From assembly GCA_903857865.1 (NCBI GenBank), contig CAIOGO010000021.1, forward strand, positions 1 to 64,000: 64,000 nt of DNA, given 5' to 3'. The DNA is from an uncultured bacterium (lineage in GTDB: Bacteria > Bipolaricaulota > Bipolaricaulia > UBA7950 > UBA9294). Shown piece by piece: positions 5,898 through 9,046 of this stretch (positions are counted from its first letter, which is position 1; each line of letters starts with the position of its first letter). The position numbers and the translations under genes are program-made. Under the pieces are notes generated by a model. That model saw nothing but the letters and a program-made list of their open reading frames with translations. It was not told the origin of the DNA and did no database searches.

Positions 5898-6941
5898 ATG
5901 TTCTCTATTCGTGAGGCCACTCCGAGCGACAATGCGGCCCTGCTTCGGCTCGAGGCCGACAGTCCGCAGGGAACAGGCATCTCGATCCTCATCGACCGTG
6001 CGGACTACTTCTACCGGTCGCGCATGCACAACCAGGCAAGGGTTCTGCTCGCCGTCGAGGATGGTCGCATCGTCGGAGTCATGGCGTTTGCCGTGAAGGA
6101 CGTCCTCCTCAACGGCGTCCCCGATCGGGCGGCCTACTTCTACGACCTGCGCGGCGAGGCAACGTACCGCCGCAGCATGAAGCGCGGACTCTTTCGGTTG
6201 TGGAAGACTGTGCTCGAGGAGGTGCAGGCCGCCGATGCCGCGTTCCTCTACGGACACGTCAAGTGCGACAACATTGATTCGCTCAACGTCGCGACTCGCC
6301 TGGGTGCGCAGGAAATGGCATCGTTCGATATCTTGACCCTGCCCGCTCTGCGCGGCCGCACAAGCCCCCTCGACGCACATCTCGACTCACTCGACGAAGA
6401 AGTGGCGCGCATCGAGCATGCCGTCGGCCCTCGCCCGCTGAAGCCCCTCCGCTTCGCGGCCGCCTACGAGCGGGGAGCCGAACTCGGCTACTTGAAGGGC
6501 ATCTTCCGCCTCGAGCGCGGTGATTCGTTCGCGCAGGTGAGCGCGTGGGATCTGTCCGCCATCTATCGCGGCCGTGTGCTCCACATGCCGCTCACTCTGC
6601 GAGCTCTCGGGGCCGTCCTGAATCCGGCCGCGCGCTTCCTGCCCGTCCCTCGCGTGCCCGTCGTCGGCCGGCCCATCGCGTACCTGCAGCTCTTCGATCC
6701 GGTGTGCGGCGGCCGTCACGGCTTCGCCCTCCTGAAGTCCCTCATCGGCCGGCTTCAGCGCAACGCGCACGCTGATGGAGTCGACATTCTCACGCTGTTC
6801 GCGTATCGGCACGATCCCCTCGTGCGCTTGCCCCGTTTCCTCCTACAGACGGTGCTCCACTACCGCACGATGGGCCTCCCGGTGCGACAAGGCGCGCTGC
6901 CATCGGAGAGGCCGCTCTACCTCGACATCCGCGACATCTAG
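5898..6941 (+). CDS. GNAT-family N-acetyltransferase-like protein
   Basis: The 347-residue protein starts like a GNAT acetyltransferase (FSIREATPSDNAALLRLE) and has a cofactor-side segment ending in NIDSLNVATRLGAQEMASFDILTL (written here in two parts: NIDSLNVATRLGAQ, then EMASFDILTL) near residue 140. The second half resembles a further GNAT-like fold but without clear motifs (GGRHGFALLKSLIGRLQRNA may be a CoA loop). The substrate is unknown. The start has a good ribosome-binding site (GGAGGTGAAAGG). The gene ends convergently with the response regulator, sharing 4 bases. Confidence 0.72.
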   Translation: MFSIREATPSDNAALLRLEADSPQGTGISILIDRADYFYRSRMHNQARVLLAVEDGRIVGVMAFAVKDVLLNGVPDRAAYFYDLRGEATYRRSMKRGLFRLWKTVLEEVQAADAAFLYGHVKCDNIDSLNVATRLGAQEMASFDILTLPALRGRTSPLDAHLDSLDEEVARIEHAVGPRPLKPLRFAAAYERGAELGYLKGIFRLERGDSFAQVSAWDLSAIYRGRVLHMPLTLRALGAVLNPAARFLPVPRVPVVGRPIAYLQLFDPVCGGRHGFALLKSLIGRLQRNAHADGVDILTLFAYRHDPLVRLPRFLLQTVLHYRTMGLPVRQGALPSERPLYLDIRDI

Positions 6942-7627
6942 AGCGCGAGCCGATAGCCGAACCCGCGAACCGTGAGAACGACCTTCGGCTTCGTAGCGTC
7001 CGTCTCGATCTTCCGCCGGAGAAGGTAGACGTACTTCTGCGCGTCTTGGTCAGTTGCGTACGAAGGATGCCCCGCGGCGCGCGACGGGTCCGTCCACAGG
7101 GACCCGACAATCTCCTGGCTGGAGAAGACGCGGCCGGGAGCCGAGGCCAAGAGAGAGAGGAGGGCGTACTCTTTCGGGGACAGGGTCACGCACCGCTCGC
7201 CAATCCGCACTTCCTTCCGCTCGTCGTCGATCACGAGGCGCGTGCGACCCAGTTCGGGATGCATTCGCCGAAGCACGGAGCGAACCCGCGCGCGCACCTC
7301 GTCTTGTTCAAACGGCTCTTGGATGACGTCATCGGCGCCGAGATCGAGCGCGTGGACTCTGTCGCCAAGCCGCGCGAGGGATGTGAGAGCAATGACGCCC
7401 GGGGTACCGGCATGCTCGCCAAGCCACTCCAAGAGGCCCCAGCCGCCGCGATGGGGGCCGCGGATCGCCAACTCTAAGAGGACGAGATCCGGCCGCAATG
7501 CGGAGATGCGATCGCGGGCCGCGTCGTCGCATGACAGGGCGACGACGCGGTGCCCGTCGTCACTCAGACCCTTGACGAGAGAATCCTGTGGCTGCGAATG
7601 ACACAGGACAATCTGTGCGCGCTCCAT
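6938..7627 (-). CDS. Atypical OmpR-type response regulator with degenerate receiver
   Basis: The 229-residue protein has a receiver-like domain (1-120) and a C-terminal winged-helix DNA-binding domain (about 130-229) with LSPKEYALLSLLASAPGRVF and VLTVRGFGYRL, as in OmpR/PhoB. The receiver lacks the N-terminal acidic pair, has Glu at the phospho-acceptor position (PDLVLLEL, E52), and has Glu in place of the conserved Lys (VIQEPF, E104). It therefore looks phosphorylation-independent, possibly locked on. The ATG at 7627 has AGGGGAGAAGG upstream. It lies 20 bases downstream of ftsZ on the same strand, with no histidine kinase nearby, so it is probably co-expressed with ftsZ. Confidence 0.85.
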   Translation of the reverse strand: MERAQIVLCHSQPQDSLVKGLSDDGHRVVALSCDDAARDRISALRPDLVLLELAIRGPHRGGWGLLEWLGEHAGTPGVIALTSLARLGDRVHALDLGADDVIQEPFEQDEVRARVRSVLRRMHPELGRTRLVIDDERKEVRIGERCVTLSPKEYALLSLLASAPGRVFSSQEIVGSLWTDPSRAAGHPSYATDQDAQKYVYLLRRKIETDATKPKVVLTVRGFGYRLAL

Positions 7628-7647
7628 GACCTTCTCCCCTCGTAGAT

Positions 7648-8997
7648 CTACTCCGCGTCGTCGGGCGCGCGTTCTCGCCGCATGAACGTCGGCACATCGA
7701 GGTCCGCGTCGCGCGAAACGCGCTCGCGTCGCACGTGGCGTTTCTCTTCCCGCACGACGGAATCCTCCGCCTGGAAACTGGCTGCGATGATCGTAATCTC
7801 CACCTCGCGGTCCCTGTCGGGCCGAACCACCGCACCGAAGATAAGATCGCATTCCGTGGCCGCAGCCCGGCGCACGTGATCGGCCGCCTGCGTGACCTCG
7901 CCCAACGTGAGGTCCTCTCCGCCGGTGACGTTCATGATCAGCCTTCTCGCGCCCCGGATCGAGTCCCCTTCGAGGAGCGGGTTCGTGCTCGCTCCCTTGG
8001 CCGCCACCAGCGCCCTTCCCGGTCCGGCAGCTCGTCCCATCCCCATCATCGCTTCGCCGGCACCTGCCAGCAAACTGCGAATGTCGGCAAAGTCGAGGTT
8101 GATGAGTCCACGCACGGTGATGAGATCGGAGATCCCCCGCACGCCTTGGTGCAGGATGCCGTCGGCGAGCTCGAATGCCTTGGTCATAGGCATCCCCTTG
8201 GCGGCAGTCTGGAGCAGACGATCATTGGACACGACGATCAAGACGTCGGCCGCCGCACGCAATTCCCGAAGCCCCTTCTCGGCGTTGGCCGTCCTCGTCG
8301 CTCCCTCGAACGTGAACGGACGAGTCACGACGCCGATCGTCAAGGCGCCCTGCTCCCGCGCCACCTCGGCGATCACCGGAGCGGCTCCCGTTCCCGTACC
8401 GCCGCCGAGGCCTGCAGTCACAAACACGAGATCCGTCTCCCGCAGCAGGGTGGCGATCTCCCAACGCGATTCCATCGCCGCCCGTCTGGCCTTTTCGAGA
8501 TTTCCCCCCGTACCGCGCCCGCCGGTGATGTCAACGCCAAGCTGAAGCTGCTCACGTACGGCCGTCGCCTGGAGAACCTGCCGGTCGGTGTCCACAGCGA
8601 CGAGGCGCACCCCCACCAGGCGCTCCTCGCGCATTCTTGCGACCGCGTTCACGCCACCGTCGCCCACGCCAAGAACCACGATGCGGGCATTCGCGCCTCG
8701 ATCCACGCCCCCGCTCTCCTTGGCTTGTTCGATCAGTGGAGGTTCCCCAATCACCACGTCGCGCCGACCGAGCACCTGTCCCACGGCTTCCTGCAGCTTG
8801 TCCGGTTTCCGCAGGCAGTACTCTTTCTTGAAGTCGCTGTCGACGGAGATGTAGAACCGCTCACCGTCGTCTGCAACGGAAGACGCATCAATGGGAAGAC
8901 AGGCTCGCAGGACGCGATCCTCAATCCCATCGCGGATCGTTCGCCACTGCTCTCGCAGAGATCCCTCGCTCGCCCCATCCAATCGCGTGCCGGCCAT
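7648..8997 (-). CDS. ftsZ: Cell division protein FtsZ with an N-terminal DnaA domain I-like extension
   Basis: FtsZ is the tubulin-like GTPase of the division ring. The 449-residue protein has the tubulin signature GGGTGTG (198-204), the T7 loop NLDFAD (300-305) that completes the neighbour's GTPase site, and a C-terminal FtsA/ZipA-type binding peptide DLDVPTFMRR (432-441). The FtsZ core begins only near residue 103 (ARIVVLGVGDGGVNAV), where most FtsZ proteins begin within 10-15 residues. Residues ~14-85 (EQWRTIRDGIEDRVL ... FYISVDSDFKKEYCL ... LQEAVGQVLGRRDVVI) follow the pattern of DnaA domain I. The ATG at 8997 has AGGAAGAG upstream and a promoter just before it, so the extension is likely translated. 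Confidence 0.93.
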   Translation of the reverse strand: MAGTRLDGASEGSLREQWRTIRDGIEDRVLRACLPIDASSVADDGERFYISVDSDFKKEYCLRKPDKLQEAVGQVLGRRDVVIGEPPLIEQAKESGGVDRGANARIVVLGVGDGGVNAVARMREERLVGVRLVAVDTDRQVLQATAVREQLQLGVDITGGRGTGGNLEKARRAAMESRWEIATLLRETDLVFVTAGLGGGTGTGAAPVIAEVAREQGALTIGVVTRPFTFEGATRTANAEKGLRELRAAADVLIVVSNDRLLQTAAKGMPMTKAFELADGILHQGVRGISDLITVRGLINLDFADIRSLLAGAGEAMMGMGRAAGPGRALVAAKGASTNPLLEGDSIRGARRLIMNVTGGEDLTLGEVTQAADHVRRAAATECDLIFGAVVRPDRDREVEITIIAASFQAEDSVVREEKRHVRRERVSRDADLDVPTFMRRERAPDDAE

Positions 8998-9017
8998 GGC
9001 TCTCTTCCTGTGCAGCC

Positions 9018-9046
9018 ATTCTGTACGCGGATCGAGGGCAAGTCAA
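9018..9046 (-). promoter_or_regulatory. Promoter for ftsZ and the response regulator
   Basis: On the minus strand TTGACT (9046-9041) is followed by a 17-base spacer and CAGAAT (9023-9018). The expected transcript start lies about 15 bases before the ftsZ ATG. This supports initiation at 8997 and thus translation of the N-terminal extension. Confidence 0.5.

Follow-up and report, generated by a model that had tools for sequence, protein, structure and literature searches.

The window examined here, 64,000 nucleotides of a contig from an uncultured member of the Bipolaricaulota, carries a gene for an FtsZ protein of 449 residues in which a predicted domain precedes the GTPase core (Table 1). 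The TIGR00065 (FtsZ) model covers residues 98-425 (E 1e-102) and scores 344 bits against an equivalog cut-off of 295, and the Pfam GTPase domain begins at residue 105; this agrees with a preliminary description of the DNA, which had placed the core near residue 103 of 449 and whose quoted sequence segments are present in the extension. Taken as a single sequence, residues 1-102 gave no Pfam or NCBIfam match with hmmscan; their kinship came to light only when the family members were scanned together. The window protein shares with canonical FtsZ (TIGR00065) the full GTPase and C-terminal core; the G-box GGGTGTG and the T7 loop NLDFAD are intact in this protein and in the consensus of its extended relatives, and the C-terminal motif, D(V/I)P(T/A)FLRR in canonical FtsZ, is likewise kept in the window protein and conserved in its relatives. 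In other FtsZ proteins this motif is the binding site for membrane tethers. Judged from these motifs, the core has kept the residues on which GTP binding, polymerisation and anchoring depend.

The source genome (2.24 Mb, 22 contigs) encodes two FtsZ proteins. The canonical one lies outside the window at C21:73953-74432, in a 390-aa frame some 65 kb from the extended gene, and is adjoined by ftsA; the window protein is therefore a paralogue and not, as the preliminary description had implied, the sole FtsZ of the cell. It differs from canonical FtsZ in its extra folded N-terminal domain, in the T2 loop (N to D) and the T3 loop (L to R, A to T), and in being encoded by a second copy away from ftsA-ftsZ.

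Table 1. Features of the extended ftsZ locus, numbered along the window.
Feature	Position	Strand	Basis or remark
ftsZ paralogue with N-terminal domain, 449 aa	7648..8997, stop codon included	-	ORF; TIGR00065; second FtsZ of the genome
Disordered N-terminal tail, residues 1-9	8971..8997	-	pLDDT <50
KH-like domain (DnaX_C / DnaA domain I / DciA superfamily), residues 10-86	8740..8970	-	profiles and AlphaFold
W18 codon	8944-8946	-	aligns with E. coli DnaA W6
F56 codon	8830-8832	-	aligns with E. coli DnaA F46
Linker, residues 87-103	8689..8739	-	model mostly disordered, pLDDT <50 at 88-101
FtsZ GTPase and C-terminal core, residues 104-408	7774..8688	-	GGGTGTG, T7 loop NLDFAD
C-terminal conserved motif LDVPTFMRR, residues 433-441	7675..7701	-	alignment; short model helix 437-442
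Sigma-70-like promoter TTGACT-N17-CAGAAT	9018..9046	-	ends 20 nt upstream of ATG
Candidate ribosome-binding site AGGA	9006..9009	-	seen in 15 of 26 relatives only
OmpR-type response regulator, immediately downstream of extended ftsZ	6938..7650	-	atypical receiver

Evidence that the extension is translated

A survey of FtsZ N-termini across the phylum found the extension in 68 of 100 Bipolaricaulota genomes, representing different families and orders; matches in other orders reach E 1e-12. In most cases the extension opens a reading frame of 430-510 aa. The extension is under purifying selection, with dN/dS of 0.10-0.39 in ten close pairs, against 0.03-0.19 for the core. In 52 of 53 homologues, drawn from families with differing flanking genes, a promoter of the form TTGAC-N18-NANAAT immediately precedes the ATG, where shuffled sequences lead one to expect 0.02. 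Of the upstream signals in the preliminary description, the promoter is borne out by these homologues; the ribosome-binding site is a candidate only.

A mis-called start, with the true protein beginning at about residue 100 and the upstream reading frame incidental, would fit the GTG codons that occur near the start of the core. The possibility is nevertheless negligible: conservation of the extension across orders, its low dN/dS and the promoter abutting the ATG rule out a start at residue 100 or so, and the extension has a confident predicted fold. The start signals conserved in relatives support the earlier proposal that translation begins at the upstream ATG, and close relatives do not place the start codon near residue 100, which would have refuted it. 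In genes of family f3 the -10 box mostly ends 11-12 nt before the ATG, which would imply nearly leaderless mRNAs.

Phage records contain no match to the extension of the window protein, and a phage origin was rejected on this ground. Among 289 genomes sampled from other phyla we found no extended FtsZ, a sample that leaves room for its occurrence elsewhere.

Identity of the N-terminal domain

When 57 extensions were aligned, W18, D27, L30, C33, L34, P35, Y60, K64 and P87 proved invariant. A Pfam scan of the same sequences matched DnaX_C in 27 (best E 2e-4), DnaA_N in 17 (best E 6e-3; 0.0061), DciA in 12 (best E 3e-3) and the STICHEL DnaA_N-like domain in 11 (best E 4e-4); any other family was matched by at most two. 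Aligned by hhalign with full-length proteins of the phylum, the extension profile falls within DnaX on its C-terminal domain (score 41-42) and within DnaA on domain I (score 33); for neither protein did any of 150 column-shuffled decoy profiles equal the real score, and reversed profiles scored about 15. Searched over 389 genomes, the extension profile retrieved the 68 extended FtsZs; beyond these it matched just two proteins, each at DnaA domain I and each from outside the phylum (E 7e-6 and 0.002). A chance likeness to the DnaA and DnaX domains was rejected on the strength of the decoys and this reverse search.

The extension nevertheless falls below the thresholds of the existing families: extended ftsZ genes score at most 21.4 bits with DnaX_C (PF20964), against a curated cut-off of 26.2, and a genome search with DnaA_N (PF11638; cut-off 24.6 bits) returned none of them. 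PDB sequences searched with the extension profile yielded nothing meaningful. The likeness to DciA is the weakest of the three in sequence, with an hhalign probability of 5% for a 10-sequence profile. By sequence, DnaX_C is at least as close to the extension as DnaA_N, and its conserved W, FxK and G positions align with those of the extension. The preliminary description's comparison with DnaA domain I is upheld by profiles and by the structure model, but DnaA is not the nearest family by sequence.

AlphaFold predicts a domain of about 75 residues in the order a1-a2-b1-b2-a3(broken)-b3, with helices at 9-24 and 28-33, strands at 41-43 and 47-50, a broken helix at 55-76 and a strand at 80-83, all at pLDDT of about 80-89. 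Compared with solved structures by VIA matching (Z), the model is closest to domain I of B. subtilis DnaA (4tps_B; Z 8.2, rmsd 2.0 over 72 residues), followed by two DciA structures (8a3v_D, Z 7.0; 7ykm, Z 6.8) and then by other KH-like folds; Foldseek by itself yielded nothing below E 0.001. The prediction of a folded domain with DnaA domain I as its best solved match is what the earlier comparison had anticipated. Modelled at full length, the protein has high confidence in both the N-terminal domain and the FtsZ core but not in the intervening residues 88-101; the aligned linker is 14-36 aa long in relatives.

Profile searches in both directions, profile-profile comparison against decoys and the AlphaFold match agree in placing the extension in the DnaX_C / DnaA domain I / DciA superfamily. 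With DnaX_C ahead by sequence, DnaA domain I ahead by structure and every direct match below the Pfam cut-offs, a new branch of that superfamily is the most fitting description. It resembles DnaA domain I (PF11638; PDB 4tps, 2wp0) in the order of helices and strands and in the W6 and F46 positions, but is followed by neither an AAA+ nor a DNA-binding domain, and its a2 region is a few residues shorter and ends in an extension-specific LRACLP motif. DnaX_C (DNA polymerase III tau C-terminus) ends a clamp-loader protein, whereas the related extension begins an FtsZ. The N-terminal domain of DciA (PF05258; PDB 8a3v, 7ykm) has the same KH-like fold, there in a DnaB loader.

Conserved residues and candidate partners

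According to PMC9912922, DciA has its KH fold in common with domain I of DnaA and domain V of DnaX, both of which interact with DnaB. Since the family members with this fold act in replication, and two are reported to bind DnaB, contact of the FtsZ extension with helicase or replication partners, as suggested in the preliminary description, is plausible by analogy. The extension shares conserved W18, F56 and G77 with the DnaX and DnaA of the phylum; in E. coli DnaA, W6 serves domain I dimerisation and F46 the binding of DnaB and DiaA (PMC5448010). W18 and F56 could keep the fold rather than form an interface. Where E. coli DnaA has E21, a second DnaB contact, the extension has C33 and the DnaA of the phylum has serine. 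A conserved surface made up of D27, K57, Y60, R63 and K64 is specific to the extension; its basic residues K57, R63 and K64 are present at 97-100% in the sampled alignment, and the extension has a net charge of about 0, where the related domains of DnaX and DnaA in this phylum have -2 to -3.

KH-like folds also bind single-stranded DNA or RNA, or self-associate, which weighs against docking on a replication partner. The domain might be a self-association module that cross-links or bundles FtsZ filaments and has no replication partner: W18 is invariant and matches the dimerisation residue W6 (PMC5448010), and a domain repeated along a filament on a flexible linker would bundle efficiently. We consider this unlikely, because the tryptophan is equally invariant in the DnaX_C and DnaA of the phylum, so that it may belong to the fold, and because self-association leaves the extension-specific surface unexplained.

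Nucleic acid binding, which would make it a division protein that senses the nucleoid or is occluded by it, is somewhat more improbable. The KH-like fold, the near-invariant basic residues and the less negative charge are in keeping with it, as are the DNA binding reported for DciA and the weak binding of single-stranded DNA reported for the E. coli DnaA N-terminus. Yet we identified by eye no GxxG loop of the kind that true KH domains have, the overall charge is only neutral, and the single-stranded DNA binding of DnaA domain I is itself weak.

Distribution and evolution of the second FtsZ

Most genomes of families f1-f3 have two FtsZ proteins, and those of f4-f9 nearly always have one. When 58 FtsZ cores are placed in a tree, the 26 extended proteins among them group in a single clade (support 100/98). 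The tree is compatible both with a duplication that preceded the radiation of the class and was followed by loss, and with a gain of the second gene in the ancestor of f1-f3. We conclude that an ancient FtsZ paralogue gained an N-terminal KH-like adaptor domain and has been kept, with its own promoter, under purifying selection. Searches of the open-access literature for an FtsZ with DnaA domain I, for FtsZ of Bipolaricaulota or Acetothermia and for such a fusion found no report; what is new is an FtsZ subfamily that combines two known parts, FtsZ and a replication-type N-terminal domain. Two FtsZ paralogues per cell are also found in Odinarchaeota (FtsZ1 and FtsZ2; PMC12583498), but these are not known to carry a folded replication-type N-terminal domain.

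Family f8 includes a second FtsZ lacking the N-terminal domain (L213, G060:C102), whose long branch attaches next to the extended clade; it could be a remnant relative or contamination. In f4 the canonical FtsZ frame (L209, L199) runs for about 60 residues before it reaches the core, and the final part of this leader is acidic and apparently disordered.

Several positions are fixed or nearly fixed in the extended clade relative to canonical FtsZ, among them NTD to DTD in T2 and GLGAGG to GRGTGG in T3. In S. aureus FtsZ, N44 and D46 of T2, together with loop T3, contact magnesium waters and the gamma-phosphate position (PMC8936486). The changes lie at nucleotide contact sites, so the extended FtsZ probably turns over GTP differently, and its polymerisation may have altered kinetics.

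Such altered dynamics, together with the position of the extended gene away from ftsA-ftsZ, would also suit a different membrane-shaping task for the second FtsZ, for instance in the bipolar prosthecae of Bipolaricaulis, with a partner of the N-terminal domain outside replication. The phylum does include prosthecate cells, whose bipolar stalks contain nucleic acid (PMC6092417). We regard this explanation as very unlikely, since the known members with the fold of the N-terminal domain are replication proteins and the morphology is known for one genus only.

Genome context

Of 30 loci in this clade (f1/f2), 21 have a relative of the downstream response regulator near the extended ftsZ, which suggests possible co-transcription of the two genes. 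Read by eye, the receiver of the window's regulator apparently lacks the acidic pair and has Glu in place of both the phospho-acceptor Asp and the conserved Lys; the regulator may therefore be independent of phosphorylation. In f1 the neighbours are rpmF, dtd, an RNase H-like gene and the response regulator, and those in f3 differ. The neighbourhood gave no clue to a partner, as the neighbours are not replication genes and vary between families.

Neither MinC nor SepF was detected in the 100 Bipolaricaulota genomes. The phylum includes an FtsZ subfamily with a folded N-terminal domain alongside canonical FtsZ, a background in which MinC and SepF are undetected, and a prosthecate type genus.

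A possible link between division and replication

How cell division is tied to DNA replication is a long-standing question, and in the links known so far separate regulators do the coupling. In the extended FtsZ both machineries appear to be joined in one polypeptide conserved across a class, and a second FtsZ with a replication-type domain hints at a direct protein link between them. To the reading that this is a specialised, replication-linked second FtsZ of the Bipolaricaulota, whose N-terminal domain docks on a replication partner, we give an even chance, by analogy with the proteins that share the fold. The extended FtsZ would co-assemble with canonical FtsZ or beside it, and would be anchored through the same C-terminal motif, FtsA being present and SepF not detected. 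Its N-terminal domain would sit outside the filament on the flexible linker and could there engage the DnaB helicase as first candidate, or another component of the replisome or of initiation. The protein might then be held back, recruited or switched according to the state of replication; the direction of control that we infer is that its assembly or position follows replication. Given that none of the 100 genomes has MinC, the extended FtsZ could provide an alternative to Min control. In its most specific form, with a dedicated second FtsZ that binds the helicase or clamp loader directly, and whose filaments form or release by replication state in place of Min-type control, the proposal is tentative and on balance doubtful.

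We also considered a general role of the extension as a substitute for DciA, and rejected it because most genomes with an extended FtsZ have DciA as well. Most of the phylum has DciA, often near dnaA. Pfam detected no DciA in the genus of the window (g1; G000:C17, L193) or in g5 and g12, and in two genomes inspected DciA was not found near dnaA. A recognisable DnaA domain I (PF11638) is present in most genomes of f1-f4 and in none of f5-f9. One genome has two DnaA_N matches of equal score 1.7 kb apart (G073:C21:4232-4417 and 5973-6158), which are either two copies of dnaA or an assembly duplicate.
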